From positions 1-64,000 of the forward strand of contig JAFDYD010000002.1 in the NCBI GenBank assembly GCA_018267615.1: 64,000 nt of DNA, given 5' to 3'. Under the pieces are notes generated by a model, which was not told the origin of the DNA, searched no databases, and saw nothing but the letters and a program-made list of their open reading frames with translations. Within the stretch, counting starts at the first letter, position 1. Every line of letters begins with the position of its first letter. A program made the position numbers and the translations under genes. Shown here in pieces: positions 22,173 through 49,019 of the stretch. Source of the DNA: Bacteroidota bacterium. GTDB taxonomy: Bacteria; Bacteroidota; Bacteroidia; Chitinophagales; Chitinophagaceae.

Positions 22173-24140
22173 ATGAAAAAAATCTCCACTTGTTTTTTAT
22201 TGCTCAGCTTTTTCTTTTTCGCAAACGCAAAGCCGTCAATAACGGCTTCATCTCCTGATAAATCAATTCGGCTCGAAGTTTCTGTATCGAATGTTATTTC
22301 ATGTACCGTTCAGGTTGATGGGAAACAAATCCTGCAAAGCAATATTGATCTTGAGTTGAGTGATGGAAAAAAACTTTCCGACAATGCGTCGGTAAAATCT
22401 TCGGATATCAAAACGGTGGATGAAACAATTATATCACCCGTTCCCTATCAACGTCGAAATATTCCGGATAACTATACGGAACTGAAAATTAATTTGAAAA
22501 ATTCGTTCGGAATTATTTTCAGGATATACAATGATGGAATCGCTTACCGTATTGCAACGGCCTTTAAAGATTCTATCATCATAAAAAATGAAAAAGCCAT
22601 TTATAAATTTACCAGCGGCAGCAGAATCATCGCGCCGATCATGCAGCAAAGAGAGAACCAGGATAAATATCACACCAGTTTTGAAGAATTATATCAGAAC
22701 AAACCGCTCGACAGTCTGCAGGAAAAAGATATGATGTTTTCGCCCGCACTTGTCGATGAAGGCAATTTGAAAATTGCAGTCACTGAATCCGATCTCGATG
22801 AATATCCCGGAATGTTTTTAAAAGGCACCGGCGATTTTGGGTTGCAGGGTGATTTTGCTCCTTATCCGTTAGCAGAAAGAATAGCCGAAGGTGATTACCC
22901 GGCAAAGATTGTTACTAAACGTGCCGACTATATTGCAAAGACTACAGGCAAAAGAAATTTACCCTGGCGCGTTTTCATGATTGCGAGAGAAGATAAGCAA
23001 CTACCGGCAAATGATATCGTTTATCGATTAGCAGCGCCATCTACCGTCAAAGATCCTTCGTGGATTCATCCGGGTAAATGCACGGATGAATGGATCATCG
23101 ATGTAAACTTATTCAATGTTCCTTTTAAAACTGGCGTGAATACGGCATCTTACAAATATTATATTGATTTCGCAAAGCGATTTGGCTTCGACAGAATCAT
23201 GATGGATGCGGGATGGAGTGATGCAAAAGATCTTTTTAAAATCAATCCAAATATCAATATGGATTCGATCACTGCCTATGCAAAAGAGAAAGGTGTAAAA
23301 ATAAGCATGTGGACTTTATCGATGACATTGGATAAACAATTAGAAGCGGCGCTAGATCAATTTAACAAATGGGGTGTTGATTTTATCATGACTGATTTTA
23401 TCGACCGGGATGATCAGCCTACAGTAAGTTTTTATAAACGCATTGCCGAAGCCTGCGCGCGTCATCATTTGATGATTATGTTTCATGGAGCATACCCACC
23501 AAAAGGGTTTAACCGCACATATCCAAACAATATAACAAGAGAAGCTGTACTTGGATCAGAGTACAATGCATGGAGTGATAAGCCAACTCCTGAACACGAT
23601 CTAACGTTGCCGTTCACACGAATGTTAGCTGGTCCGCTGGATTATGAACCAGGAATACTCGACAATGCAACCAAAATACAATTCAAACCGATTTGGGGAA
23701 AAGTGATGAGCCAGGGAACACGCTGTCATCAGCTGTCGATGTTTGTTGTATATGATAACCCATTGCAAATTTTTTCTGGAAATCCATCGCAGGGTTTTAT
23801 GGAACCAGCATTCATGGAATTCCTCGGAAGTTTTCCAACTGTTTGGGATACTACTGCAATTATCGATGCAAAAGTTTCTGATTATATCATTACTGCCAGA
23901 AAAAAAGGAGATGACTGGTTCGTTGCAGGTATGACTGACTGGACCGCAAGATCATTCGACATTCCGCTTAATTTTTTAGCCGACGGAAATTATGAATCTA
24001 CATTGTGCGCTGATGGTATCAATGCAGAAAGATATCCTTCGGATTATACTATTACAAGTTCTGTTGTCAATGTGAAAGATAAAGTGCATGTTAGTATGGC
24101 ACCGGGAGGGGGATTTGTTTTGAGATTGAAAAAAAAGTAG
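22173..24140 (+). CDS. Glycoside hydrolase family 97
   Basis: A 655-residue exported GH97 enzyme (signal peptide to about residue 19). The N-terminal beta-sandwich opens SSPDKSIRLEVSVSN; the (beta/alpha)8 barrel begins near FDRIMMDAGWSD and carries GVDFIMTDFIDRDDQ and ITREAVLGSEYNAW. GH97 holds inverting alpha-glucosidases (SusB) and retaining alpha-galactosidases. In retaining members an Asp in the segment equivalent to TDFIDRDDQ is the nucleophile, so this protein looks like the retaining type; that is inference from one motif. No SusC/SusD genes adjoin. It likely works in the periplasm on oligosaccharides. Confidence 0.9.
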   Translation: MKKISTCFLLLSFFFFANAKPSITASSPDKSIRLEVSVSNVISCTVQVDGKQILQSNIDLELSDGKKLSDNASVKSSDIKTVDETIISPVPYQRRNIPDNYTELKINLKNSFGIIFRIYNDGIAYRIATAFKDSIIIKNEKAIYKFTSGSRIIAPIMQQRENQDKYHTSFEELYQNKPLDSLQEKDMMFSPALVDEGNLKIAVTESDLDEYPGMFLKGTGDFGLQGDFAPYPLAERIAEGDYPAKIVTKRADYIAKTTGKRNLPWRVFMIAREDKQLPANDIVYRLAAPSTVKDPSWIHPGKCTDEWIIDVNLFNVPFKTGVNTASYKYYIDFAKRFGFDRIMMDAGWSDAKDLFKINPNINMDSITAYAKEKGVKISMWTLSMTLDKQLEAALDQFNKWGVDFIMTDFIDRDDQPTVSFYKRIAEACARHHLMIMFHGAYPPKGFNRTYPNNITREAVLGSEYNAWSDKPTPEHDLTLPFTRMLAGPLDYEPGILDNATKIQFKPIWGKVMSQGTRCHQLSMFVVYDNPLQIFSGNPSQGFMEPAFMEFLGSFPTVWDTTAIIDAKVSDYIITARKKGDDWFVAGMTDWTARSFDIPLNFLADGNYESTLCADGINAERYPSDYTITSSVVNVKDKVHVSMAPGGGFVLRLKKK

Positions 24141-24285
24141 TGAGAGGCGGGAGTTTAACCAGGATTTTAAACGATTAGTCTGATTGAACTGAATGAGAGC
24201 GGTTTTCTATTCACGTTTGACGTCTCACGTTCAGTTCAATCAGACTAATCGTTTAAAATCCTGGTTAAACTCCCGGTTCTCACTA
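24138..24285. repeat. Stop-to-stop inverted repeat between GH97 and mocR
   Basis: Left arm about 24138-24201, right arm about 24220-24285, over 60 bp with few mismatches. The left end is the TAG stop of GH97 and the right end, read backwards, is the TAG stop of the convergent MocR gene, so the palindrome runs exactly from stop to stop. The apex contains family A words (CACGTTTGACGTCTCACG). Confidence 0.93.
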
Positions 24286-25719
24286 TTTAATCATTTTCTT
24301 TATCAACTCTCCAACAATTCTCAAACCTCTTTCTACGTCAGCATCCCATGGACGAGCATAACTGATGCGCAAACAATTTCGAAACTGTCCCTGCGAAGAA
24401 AATATTTGCCCAGGCGCAATTGAAATTTGATGCTTCACCGTTTCCTGGTAGAGTTTAAAGCTGTTTATTTTTTTATTTACTTCAATCCATAATACAAAGC
24501 CTCCTTGCGGCCTCGATACTTTTGTATCTGGAGGAAAATATTGAATGATCCCCTGGATATACCGGAGACATTGTGTGTGCAATGCTTTCCGCAAATTTTT
24601 CAAATGATACTCATACCTGCCGATACTTAAAAAATGTGCAACAGCAAGCTGGGTGATCGCAACACCGCTAACGGTATGAACTAATTTCAAACGCATCACT
24701 TTCTCCGTGAACCTCCCCGGAATTGCCCACCCGATTCGGTAACCGGGCGCGAGCGATTTTGATAATGATCCACATAACAAAACCCAACCTTCCTTATCAA
24801 ATGTTTTGCAGGTTTTAGGGCGATGTCGTCCAAAATATAATTCACTGTAGATATCATCTTCTATCAGGGGAATTTTATGTTTTGTAATTAATTCAACGAG
24901 TAATTTCTTTTTCTCATCCGGCATGCAACTTCCAAGTGGATTATTAAAGTTGGGAACAAATACACATGCACTGACTTTAAATTTTTTAATTGCCTTTGCG
25001 AGTTCATCGATATCGAGTCCGGTGACGGGATCAGTAGGGATTTCCAATACTTTCAATCCTAAATTTTCTATTGCCTGGAAGATGCCGAAATAGGTGGGAC
25101 TTTCTATCGCAACTGTGTCACCTGGCTTTGTAACAGCACGTAAACATATATTCAATGCTTCTAAACAACCGGCAGTTACAACAATATCGTCAGCGGAAAA
25201 TTTTCCGCCCCAGTTAAATGCAAGTTTTGACAATTGCTTACGCAGATCTTTATTTCCCTGGACATGTTCATAATTTATTCCATGATCTTTCGATGCACGA
25301 ATTGCATGCACGAGTGCTTTGTTAAGTTTTGCCGCAGGAAGTAATTCCACTGGCGGCACTGCAACAGAAAAATTTAACAAGTCATCCGTAGACATATTTC
25401 TGTAAACAGTAGAAATCATGTCTTCAATACTGACTTCATTGACAAAAGGTTCCGGATCAGATTTTTCAGGCAGGCGCGGAAAACGACGAAAGTTAAACCG
25501 AACATAGTATCCCGATTTCGGTCTTGCTTCAATAAGGCCTTTTCCCTCCAGGTGATAATATGCCTGGAACGCAGTGCCCATGCTGATTCCATATTCATCA
25601 CTCAACACACGTACCGAAGGAAGTTTATCGCCAATTTTTAAAACCTCTTCACCAATCATTTTCTCAATGCCATCGGCTACCTGCAGGTAAAGATGATCAT
25701 CGGAGTTTTTTCTGAGCAT
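24283..25719 (-). CDS. MocR/PdxR-type GntR regulator with aminotransferase domain
   Basis: A 478-residue transcription factor that fuses a GntR-type winged helix to a class I aminotransferase fold. The helix-turn-helix is in residues about 8-75 (KIGDKLPSVRVLSDEYGISMGTAF..GLIEARPKSGYYVR), and the PLP lysine is in LLCGSLSKSLAPGYRIGW. I chose ATG 25719 (MLRKNSDDHLYLQVADGI) because the 32-codon upstream reading lies in an inverted repeat. MocR proteins usually control an adjacent amine or vitamin B6 gene; here the divergent neighbour is a double GNAT enzyme, a possible target. Confidence 0.9.
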   Translation of the reverse strand: MLRKNSDDHLYLQVADGIEKMIGEEVLKIGDKLPSVRVLSDEYGISMGTAFQAYYHLEGKGLIEARPKSGYYVRFNFRRFPRLPEKSDPEPFVNEVSIEDMISTVYRNMSTDDLLNFSVAVPPVELLPAAKLNKALVHAIRASKDHGINYEHVQGNKDLRKQLSKLAFNWGGKFSADDIVVTAGCLEALNICLRAVTKPGDTVAIESPTYFGIFQAIENLGLKVLEIPTDPVTGLDIDELAKAIKKFKVSACVFVPNFNNPLGSCMPDEKKKLLVELITKHKIPLIEDDIYSELYFGRHRPKTCKTFDKEGWVLLCGSLSKSLAPGYRIGWAIPGRFTEKVMRLKLVHTVSGVAITQLAVAHFLSIGRYEYHLKNLRKALHTQCLRYIQGIIQYFPPDTKVSRPQGGFVLWIEVNKKINSFKLYQETVKHQISIAPGQIFSSQGQFRNCLRISYARPWDADVERGLRIVGELIKKMIK

Positions 25720-25740
25720 ACACTTTGGTTTATTGTTTAT

Positions 25741-25845
25741 GTCTGAACTTGGATTTATGGGATGCATAGGATGAGTGGGATAATCTGGTAAATTTTTATT
25801 CAATTTCCCATACATCCTATCACTCTCAAAAATCTCAGTTCAGAC
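25741..25845. repeat. Inverted repeat, family H, in a divergent promoter space
   Basis: Arms 25741-25782 and 25804-25845, about four fifths identical. Words: CTGAACT, GGATTTATG, GATGCATAGGAT. A sister copy is at 37049-37150. Unlike most repeats here it lies between divergent genes. Confidence 0.85.
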
Positions 25846-44185: not shown

Positions 44186-45288
44186 GATTATTGCTTAACA
44201 AATTTTACTTGCTGATTTTTTTGCTGGTTCCATTCGTTGTATGCTCTCAAACATTGCGTGACATTGCTGATTCAGTTCGTTTGTCGAGAGGTGTTCCCGG
44301 GTTGGTGTACGCTGTTTTTACAAGTGACAGCATCTTGGACCAGGGAGCCTGCGGAGTTAGAAAATACAGAACAAAAGATAGTATCCGTATAACTGATTGC
44401 TTTGATATTGGTCTCAATACTGCTGCCTTTACATCTTATATCGCCGCAAAAATGGTAGAGGAAAAAAAGATAAATTGGGATACGAAGTTGTTAGATATTT
44501 TCCCTGATTTTAAAAAGAAAGCATTTCCTGTTTATAAAAATTTAACGCTTGTTGATTTATTATCAAACCGCACTGTCGTTCCACTTTATACCGAATTAAA
44601 TGATCTGTCAAGAATCCCAAATATCGAAGGCAAAACGATGTCGTCCAAGCGAAGACAATTCACGATGTATATGCTTACGCAAAAACCATTTCTGGATAAT
44701 TTCGTTTCCAAAAAAATTGCGTTTTCAATACCGGCTTATGTGATGGCCGCTTCCATGCTTGAAAAAGTCGCGGGAAAAAAATGGGAAGGATTGGTAAACG
44801 ATTACATCAACATCCCTTTAAAAGTTACAATCAAATATGGATGGCCATTTATGACAGATAGTACAGCGCCTGCGGGACATTGGACGCAGGGAAACTATTT
44901 CCATGCCGAAGGAGCAGATACATGGGTGCGGCCTAACCCGATTTTGTATCCTGCACATCATATCAGTATCAATTTGCAGGATTATATCAAGTTTATGCAG
45001 GAAAATCTTTCAGGGCTTCTCGGCAAAACAGCTCATTTGAAAAAAGAGACTTTTGAATTTTTACATTTTGGTTTGATAGATTATGCACTGGGATGGAATA
45101 ATGGTGCACTGGATAATTATTCATATTCTTTTCACGAAGGACTTTCATTCCTCTACAATTGCAGAGCCGTTATTATCAAAGAAAAAAATATCGGCATCGT
45201 AGTTATGTGCAACTCTGGTGATAGCGATGGCCGCGGAGCAGTTTTGAATTTGACGAGAATATTGGAGAGCCACTATTTAAACTTCTGA
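44182..45288 (+). CDS. Beta-lactamase-fold protein with lost catalytic residues
   Basis: A 368-residue exported serine beta-lactamase/PBP4-like protein. The signal peptide is MRLLLNKFYLLIFLLVPFVVCSQ. The fold is clear (DIADSVRLSRGVPGLVYAVFTSD, LVDLLSNRT, LEKVAGKKW), but the motif normally reading F-x-I-G-S-x-x-K-x-F-T is FDIGLNTAAFT (74-84): the nucleophile Ser is Leu78 and the Lys is Ala81. The YxN motif is FSI (181-183). Only a HxG-like FHEGL near 330 survives. It should be catalytically dead, perhaps a binding protein. It is co-translated with the sterol-desaturase-like gene. Confidence 0.85.
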   Translation: MRLLLNKFYLLIFLLVPFVVCSQTLRDIADSVRLSRGVPGLVYAVFTSDSILDQGACGVRKYRTKDSIRITDCFDIGLNTAAFTSYIAAKMVEEKKINWDTKLLDIFPDFKKKAFPVYKNLTLVDLLSNRTVVPLYTELNDLSRIPNIEGKTMSSKRRQFTMYMLTQKPFLDNFVSKKIAFSIPAYVMAASMLEKVAGKKWEGLVNDYINIPLKVTIKYGWPFMTDSTAPAGHWTQGNYFHAEGADTWVRPNPILYPAHHISINLQDYIKFMQENLSGLLGKTAHLKKETFEFLHFGLIDYALGWNNGALDNYSYSFHEGLSFLYNCRAVIIKEKNIGIVVMCNSGDSDGRGAVLNLTRILESHYLNF

Positions 45289-45431
45289 TTGGAATGATTG
45301 AAATGATTTACTATGTAGTTAGGAAAGAAAACTAATTTCATCTATTTAAATTTATTGCTATAGTAAATCATTTTAATCAGTTCAATCAGAAGTTGCTCAG
45401 TAAATCATTTCAATCATTCCAATCAGAAGTT
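45280..45431. repeat. Perfect 33-bp inverted repeat, family G, with duplicated right arm
   Basis: Left arm 45280-45312 and outer right arm 45399-45431 are exact complements. A second, imperfect right arm is at 45358-45394. The left arm contains the stop of the beta-lactamase-like gene and the right arm touches the stop of the convergent transglutaminase gene. Confidence 0.95.
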
Positions 45432-47485: not shown

Positions 47486-47573
47486 TAGTGACTTGAAAAG
47501 AGTGGAGGAACAGGGCGGAGAGCGTAGAGCTCTACGCTCTCCGCCCTGTTCCTCCACTCTTTTCAAGTCACTA
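47486..47573. repeat. Perfect 88-bp palindrome with no loop
   Basis: Every base of 47486-47529 pairs with 47530-47573; the centre is GAGCTC. The right end is the TAG stop of the ATP-grasp gene, mirrored as TAG at the left end. GC-rich in the middle. It separates two genes of a conserved trio. Confidence 0.98.
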
Positions 47574-49019
47574 TCCCGCCAATACCCAGGTATCCTTACT
47601 TCCGCCACCTTGTGATGAATTTACAACCAATGATCCTTCACGCAATGCGACTCTTGTTAAACCGCCGGGAACAATTTCTATTCCGCCGGGACCGCAGAGT
47701 GCATAAGGCCGAAGATCGATCCTGCGTGGTTGCAATCTGCCATTCATATAACATGGCGCAGAAGATAAGCTGATAATGGGTTGAGCAATATATTGACGCG
47801 GATCTTTCATGATTTCCGCCTTGTAACGGACGATCTCTTCATCGGTTGCTGTATGTCCCATGAGCATTCCATAACCCCCACTCTCATTTGTTTTTTTCAC
47901 AACCATTTTATTCATGTTGGAAAAAACATATTCTCTTTCTTCATTATTATTCAACTGGTATGTCGGAACATTTTTCAATATTGGTTCCTCATTCAAATAA
48001 TATTTTATCATCGCCGGAACATAACTGTAAATCGCCTTGTCATCCGCTACGCCATTTCCTATCGCATTAACAATTGCAACATTACCCTTCCGATACGCAC
48101 TCATGATGCCGGATACACCGAGCATACTTTTTGGATTGAACACAAGCGGATCCAAAAATTCATCATCCACTCGTCTATATATCACATCCACTTGTTGCAG
48201 CCCGGATGTCGTTTTCATATACACGCGATGACCATCAACCACCAGGTCTCTTCCTTCTACCAGCTCAACGCCCATCAAGCGGGCCAATGTAGTATGTTCG
48301 AAATAAGCTGAGTTATAAATTCCGGGCGTGAGTACAACAATGGTTGGGTTACTAATACCGCGCGGTGATAATGAAACAAGATTTTTGTGAAGAATATTTG
48401 GATATTCTGTTACAGGGCGTACGTTGTTTCTTGGAATCAGATCGGGAAAGATGCGTTTGGTGATTTCTCTGTTCTCCAGCATATAACTAACGCCGCTGGG
48501 TGTACGAAGATTATCTTCCAGGATATAGAACTCACCATCACTATTCCGGATCAGATCGATACCTGCAATATGTACATAGATATCATGCGGCACCGGGAAT
48601 CCATGCATCTCCCGTAAATAGTGCGGACAACTATATATCATGTCAATCGGAACTATTTCATCCTTCAAAATAAATTGATCACTATACACATCTTTTAAAA
48701 AAAGATTGAGCGCTTTCAGTCGCTGTTTGATTCCTTTTTCAATATAGTTCCATTCGGGTGCAGTAATGATACGCGGGATGATATCAAAAGGAAATATTTT
48801 TTCAATGCCTTCGCCGCTGCTATAAACAGTAAAAGTAATACCCTGACTCATAAAAAGCTTCCTGGCCATTTCTTCTTTTCTGTTCAATTCTTCTACGCTC
48901 AACTCCTGCATAAATTCAACAACACCCTGGTATTGTTCGCGAACAGAGTCATTTTTATACATCTCATCCCATGTATTGGTATCAACGAGATACTTATTAA
49001 GCAGTTCACTGGTTTGCAT
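47571..49019 (-). CDS. Circularly permuted ATP-grasp protein
   Basis: A 482-residue cytoplasmic protein of the COG2308 (DUF404/DUF407) family, an ATP-grasp ligase with permuted domains. Recognisable elements: RPSGV-like RTPSGVSYMLENREI, FPDLIPRNNVRPVTEYP, GRDLVVDGHRVYMKTTSGLQQVDVIYRRVDDEFLDP (named by position, residues about 270-305), the ATP-binding MVVKKTNESGGYGMLMG near 385 and RRIDLRPYALCGPGG near 440. The family is predicted to ligate an amino acid to an acceptor; the product is unknown. It is first in the trio. The stop is inside the palindrome. Confidence 0.9.
   Translation of the reverse strand: MQTSELLNKYLVDTNTWDEMYKNDSVREQYQGVVEFMQELSVEELNRKEEMARKLFMSQGITFTVYSSGEGIEKIFPFDIIPRIITAPEWNYIEKGIKQRLKALNLFLKDVYSDQFILKDEIVPIDMIYSCPHYLREMHGFPVPHDIYVHIAGIDLIRNSDGEFYILEDNLRTPSGVSYMLENREITKRIFPDLIPRNNVRPVTEYPNILHKNLVSLSPRGISNPTIVVLTPGIYNSAYFEHTTLARLMGVELVEGRDLVVDGHRVYMKTTSGLQQVDVIYRRVDDEFLDPLVFNPKSMLGVSGIMSAYRKGNVAIVNAIGNGVADDKAIYSYVPAMIKYYLNEEPILKNVPTYQLNNNEEREYVFSNMNKMVVKKTNESGGYGMLMGHTATDEEIVRYKAEIMKDPRQYIAQPIISLSSAPCYMNGRLQPRRIDLRPYALCGPGGIEIVPGGLTRVALREGSLVVNSSQGGGSKDTWVLAG

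Follow-up and report, generated by a model that had tools for sequence, protein, structure and literature searches.

Palindromic and short repeated sequences near bacterial gene ends have been described in several forms. REP/BIME sequences, which are linked to RAYT transposases, are intergenic, palindromic, and present in many copies, and often lie no more than 15 nt from a stop codon (PMC12306157). Stable stem-loops and intrinsic terminators are overrepresented between convergent genes and immediately downstream of stop codons (PMC1590033; PMC13155455). Intergenic heptamer repeats, such as TAACTGA, are words of seven nt with a patchy distribution that includes Bacteroidetes (PMC4679880). In quasipalindrome template switching, long stems are created or made perfect when one arm serves as the template for the other; perfect stems can be made in one event, and the source raises, for RNA genes, the question of how stems arise and stay perfect (PMC8794818). 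In yeast, foldback inverted duplications increase upon the loss of the Mre11 nuclease (PMC10622511).

The present study concerns a long inverted repeat between two convergent genes and similar hairpins in the same genome. The window refers to the whole stretch of DNA that was analyzed (64,000 nt). As with REP/BIME, the hairpins have a high copy number in intergenic DNA near stop codons. However, they have 20–118 pairs, in contrast to the 20–40-bp units of REP/BIME, consist of many unrelated word families with a 7–8-nt periodicity, carry no GTAG/CGTC tag, and have no matching RAYT locus. They abut or swallow the stop codon (median distance of 9 nt), whereas intrinsic terminators peak at +50 to +80 bp according to PMC13155455; they are also much longer, with few U-tracts and no wobble signal on the transcript strand. 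The heptamer repeats of PMC4679880 are direct and mostly precede start codons, whereas the words in the present genome form inverted arms at stop codons. In contrast to the described cases of quasipalindrome template switching, hundreds of loci are involved, the arms contain genome-wide words, and we infer the events rather than observe them. We regard the hairpins as a probable lineage-specific variant of the palindromic repeats known from gene ends. Among the results of literature searches on such repeats, gene-end palindromes, and the words, we found no recognized description of the pattern.

Results and Discussion

Inverted repeat between the GH97 and MocR-type genes

The genes and the parts of the repeat are as follows.

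22173–24140, + strand: GH97 glycoside hydrolase gene (open reading frame; Pfam GH97_N, Glyco_hydro_97, and GH97_C), stop codon TAG at 24138–24140
24135–24199: left arm, 65 nt
24138–24154: left outer extension, TAG included, 15/17 identical to the mate arm and absent elsewhere in the genome
24155–24193: left copy of a genome-wide module, with the foot TTAACCAGGATT, a variant of TGAACCAGGATT, then TTTAAACGATT..CTGATT..ACTGAA
24200–24223: loop; a second word set, CACGTTTGACGTCTCACG, lies in its right side and the inner arm, and also in other hairpins
24224–24288: right arm, 65 nt
24269–24285: right outer extension with the mirrored TAG (CTA on the + strand)
24283–25815, − strand: GntR/aminotransferase (MocR-type) gene (open reading frame with a domain match), stop codon TAG at 24285–24283

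The 154-nt inverted repeat at 24135–24288 forms 60 pairs around a 24-nt loop and fills the gap between the two genes. Its arms, separated by 24 nt, are 92% complementary, and its RNA fold has a computed energy of −110 kcal/mol (z = −18), which none of 200 shuffles equaled. The TAG of GH97 and that of MocR occupy exact mirror positions, and the stem takes in both. Pairing continues for 3 nt beyond each TAG (AAG/AAA, two of three matched), and, thus, the description in the earlier note of a repeat running exactly from stop codon to stop codon is confirmed to within one codon. The left foot reads GTAG by chance; its mirror is ATAG.

The word TTAACCAGGATT starts at 24155, and the stop-adjacent unique stretch adjoins the outer side of this module foot; these 17 nt, the TAG included, pair with the mate at 15 of 17 positions. 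A whole-genome search with the 21 nt inward from the GH97 stop, allowing up to 3 mismatches, returned the two arms only, and other places in the genome that resemble the locus are 69–93% identical over shorter lengths. No match to the locus was detected among 38 relatives. The module word, searched for in the whole collection, gave one stretch outside this genome, located in a predicted coding region and taken as chance; the record with that match had no hairpins in the 8 kb read. Since the outer 17 nt are unique to both arms, we consider both arms of a usual module hairpin to have lengthened together until they reached the stop codons, a pattern compatible with template switching or foldback synthesis. 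The earlier note held that an insertion would be hard to reconcile with these end points; that argument ignores that a genome-wide repeat forms most of the arm.

Ends of the flanking genes

The C-terminal Pfam domain of the GH97 protein reaches residue 653 of 655. The true start of the MocR-type gene may be 25719, as homologues align from about residue 35. The stop codons of both genes match the end points of nine GH97 and nine MocR homologues within a few codons, and the end points of the closest homologues agree to about one codon. Among these 18 homologues, L056 has its own hairpin after the stop, and L057 and L060 have little downstream sequence. The GH97 gene of another genome (G001) ends in RLQEQ TAG versus RLKKK TAG in that studied here, and the nine MocR homologues end in LIRKMS, KMI, KML, KMSK, KKLD, and similar residues. 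Because the end points are conserved, neither gene end appears to have been visibly altered, except for a possible extra lysine codon in MocR.

Hairpins in the genome and its relatives

The window contained 18 hairpins with a score of at least 20 (17 besides that at 24135–24288), and a shuffled 64-kb control contained none at the same threshold. In 860,657 bases (16% of the genome), we found 234 comparable hairpins, 231 of which were intergenic (68 convergent, 129 tandem, and 34 divergent). A hairpin was present in 65 of the 114 gaps between convergent genes, 127 of the 459 between tandem genes, and 34 of the 117 between divergent genes, with genes called by our own simple script and not a standard gene finder. 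The number of pairs ranged between 20 and 118 (quartiles of 30.5, 37, and 45.5), with shorter hairpins being excluded by the score threshold. Density was roughly 27 per 100 kb, although it may be biased because the contigs other than that of the window were chosen from among those hit by earlier searches and are not a random sample. When extrapolated from these contigs, which were not drawn at random, the whole genome would hold about 1,450 long hairpins.

Only three hairpins were present in 400 kb sampled from 20 relatives as twenty 20-kb stretches (13 relatives labeled as the same genus). When 395 other genomes of the order were searched for a module-B hairpin pattern, five contained it; among the five loci read, those of G138 and G352 carry hairpins at stop codons. 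G352, which belongs to another family, has long hairpins (L145) of the seven-nt words CAGTGAG/CAGTCAA and GATGAAT that start at stop codons, and, thus, this kind of hairpin recurs in distant lineages with other words. In G034, also from another family, the word TTTGCGTCTTTGCG occurs 50 times, SbcC and SbcD were matched, and the tested hairpin form was absent.

False inverted duplications arising from assembly or amplification would also produce long palindromes, and 15 of the 16 runs of N in the 861-kb sample (the window and contigs of the same genome, G000) lie inside hairpins. However, mismatches are scattered between the arms, the arms recur as families placed at stop codons, and hardly any similar hairpins were present in the sampled relatives. 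We regard the probability of such an artifact as close to negligible. The runs of N are assembly gaps at stems or masked stretches.

Position of the hairpins at stop codons

Tandem hairpins lie a median of 9 nt from the stop codon and 78 nt from the next start codon; 116 of 129 are nearer the stop and 11 are nearer the start, and 85 are within 15 nt of the stop. Among the 68 convergent hairpins, six have equal gaps on both sides, all of which overlap the stop codons, whereas shuffling of the partners gave a mean of 0.97 (P = 0.00035). In the 11 cases with both stop codons wholly within the arms, six are mirrored versus one third expected for identical arms and random frames (P = 0.12). Mirrored stops follow from arm symmetry and the reading frame; they exceed independence, yet are unremarkable for two genes that each continue into one of a pair of identical arms.

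The earlier note suggested looking for other stop-to-stop cases. Both feet are located 0–3 nt outside the stop codons in three of the 68 convergent hairpins, versus 0.11 expected from random sliding.

24135–24288: inverted repeat between the GH97 and MocR-type genes
C60:86541–86621: hairpin with both feet 0–3 nt outside stop codons
C31:60483–60747: hairpin with both feet 0–3 nt outside stop codons

Gene ends written by repeats

Repeats often write gene ends in this genome. The protein that ends at the repeat C31:155051–155153 has the C terminus LTR-LSG, in which the last three codons (LSG) and the stop codon lie in the repeat. Fourteen homologues were fetched, and four without a recognizable C-terminal motif were left out; of the ten readable homologues, six end exactly at TR, one has one residue more, two differ, and one is longer. 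Two further hairpins in the window reach stop codons.

45280–45431: hairpin in a convergent gap; its foot AACTTCTGA provides the last codons and stop codon of the left gene
47486–47573: hairpin with one end exactly on a stop codon, the second such case in the window (the TAG belongs to the − strand gene 47571–49019); the other arm ends before a start codon

A hairpin foot terminates six of the eight genes that end in AAC TTC TGA. The C terminus Asn-Phe was noted in six proteins whose last codons and stop codon come from the foot AACTTCTGA (C22:45288, C60:98997, C60:110532, C31:54023, C31:54187, and C31:102652).

These data bear on the earlier proposal that the palindrome grew by template switching, with the end of one gene being copied onto the other strand. 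Growth through local inverted copying is plausible and supported by the unique outer arms, whereas the transfer of one gene end to the other is not supported: the stop positions of both genes are conserved in homologues without the repeat, and both genes, which end in AAR TAG in a mirrored register, have only one codon in common. The mirrored register speaks for literal copying, as do the three convergent hairpins with both feet just outside the stops, the MocR gene, which ends one codon later than four of its nine homologues, and the locus-specific arms that extend 10–27 nt into a gene at a few other loci. However, gene ends that may have been transferred to the opposite arm are rare (locus-specific arms at 4 of 35 deep feet), and arms deep inside genes mostly consist of the genome-wide module. 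Furthermore, at C31:155051–155153, codons were supplied by the repeat, which is the opposite direction. Literal copying of one gene end onto the other is, therefore, very improbable.

Words and copies within the hairpins

The hairpins are mosaics of 7–8-nt words common across the genome. Self-identity within arms was 0.40 at lag 7 and 0.37 at lag 8, versus 0.29 after shuffling and 0.29 and 0.285, respectively, in other intergenic DNA. Twenty-six recurring ten-letter words were listed. When 218 arms were compared with the other sampled copies (16% of the genome), the arm's own mate was the closest in 157, tied in 21, and less close than another locus in 40. Well-paired outer arms without an above-chance copy elsewhere in the sample were present in 21 of the 218 hairpins.

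REP- or MITE-like mobile elements, namely, ready-made hairpins inserted next to stop codons and moved by a transposase acting in trans, are an alternative origin. Copies elsewhere in the sample cover 93% of hairpin length, modules mostly occur as hairpins, and TGAAC...GATT is present at many feet, often in a single orientation, with TGAAC at 8 times the background; this word could be an element end. The genome also has three Y1 transposase genes. However, the outer 17–21 nt of the palindrome at 24135–24288 are restricted to a single locus, and the two arms of a hairpin generally resemble each other more closely than copies do. The feet show no tag preference: among 462 feet, 19 carry GTAG and 11 carry CGTC (tetramer ranks of 109 and 163). 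Another, G+C-rich repeat borders the RAYT-like genes on C50. We consider mobile elements to be an unlikely origin, although less so than literal copying.

RAYT transposases were checked as the driver at the loci on C50 and C29 and rejected because no link to the hairpins was found there. The C50 locus (L130, G000:C50:48000–66000) has two RAYT-like genes among many copies of the G+C-rich repeat GGCGCAAGTGTTCCCGC..., which is a transposase-linked palindrome family distinct from the gene-end hairpins. A single Y1 transposase-like gene (L131, G000:C29:123160–123591) lies amid ordinary genes, has matches of a similar span in several genomes of the same genus, and is possibly domesticated; only ordinary hairpins adjoin it.

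Tests of RNA-level selection

Hairpins that act as bidirectional terminators or protect mRNA 3′ ends would be selected as RNA. The accumulation near 3′ ends and between convergent genes, which PMC1590033 reports for stable stem-loops in all bacteria surveyed, is consistent with this possibility, as is the highly stable RNA fold of the palindrome at 24135–24288. In the 12 nt that follow the hairpin, TTTT is slightly more common on the sense side (15 of 129) than on the other side (7 of 129). However, T content 3′ of the hairpin is 0.335 versus 0.318 on the other side, and sense-strand arm mismatches in the 129 tandem hairpins comprise 136 G.T and 127 A.C (P = 0.62). The stems (median of 37 pairs) are far longer than terminator stems, 34 hairpins lie between divergent genes, and the stem at 24135–24288 swallows both stop codons with no T-run at either end. 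Since there is no bias of G.U over A.C and almost no U-tract excess, RNA selection does not account for the hairpins; both tests came out against this candidate, which we rejected and consider improbable.

Proposed copying between arms

We lean slightly toward an origin at the DNA level, in which template switching or foldback synthesis made and keeps the symmetry and the arms lengthen outward to the stop codons. Template switching or foldback-primed synthesis inside a hairpin would copy one arm onto the other, and the same copying may lengthen both arms outward. Lengthening would be neutral until coding sequence is met, and arms would pile up at stop codons; where two neighboring genes enter identical arms in a shared frame, their stop codons would lie at mirrored positions. 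At 24135–24288, the usual module hairpin would have had both arms lengthened outward by about 17 bp to the stops. In this explanation, we infer the copying mechanism, its direction, and purifying selection as the boundary-setter.

That the own mate is usually the closest copy points to local, DNA-level copying of one arm from the other. Template-switch quasipalindromes are characterized by arms that resemble each other more than they resemble related copies, and also by locus-specific sequence in both arms, which was found at the present locus on a whole-genome scale and in the 21 hairpins of the sample. Several points stand against local copying. The word CTTTGCGTGA occurs in 28 hairpins versus twice outside them, and modules are mostly present in hairpins and not as single arms, an outcome not predicted by local copying alone. 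Another locus is closer than the mate in 40 of the 218 arms, well-paired, locus-specific outer arms are limited to those 21 hairpins, and the common word TGAAC...GATT at some feet is a candidate element end.

A more specific form of copying between arms is only tentatively proposed and, in our opinion, is rather unlikely as a whole: re-priming on 7–8 nt by a replication or repair polymerase would expand heptamer and octamer words and write foldback copies as a lineage-specific process, with hairpins growing to stop codons and filling about half of the convergent gaps in one species, whose genome gave no SbcCD match.

As a rule, bacteria do not maintain long palindromes stably. No match to SbcD or SbcC was found in this genome, which is 99% complete, and the absence of detectable SbcC and SbcD may permit such hairpins; it is at most permissive. 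We rejected the loss of SbcCD as the only cause: many relatives without hairpins in the 20-kb samples likewise gave no SbcC match, whereas G352, in which comparable hairpins lie at stop codons, has SbcC.

Conclusion

A stop-to-stop palindrome that is striking when viewed alone can belong to the tail of a pattern that spans the genome, and we consider this pattern to be of more interest than the single case. The genome shows that the last codons of proteins are rewritten by repeats. With its long hairpins, which by extrapolation number about 1,450 and are mostly located at gene ends, it is a natural laboratory for the origin and upkeep of stems.
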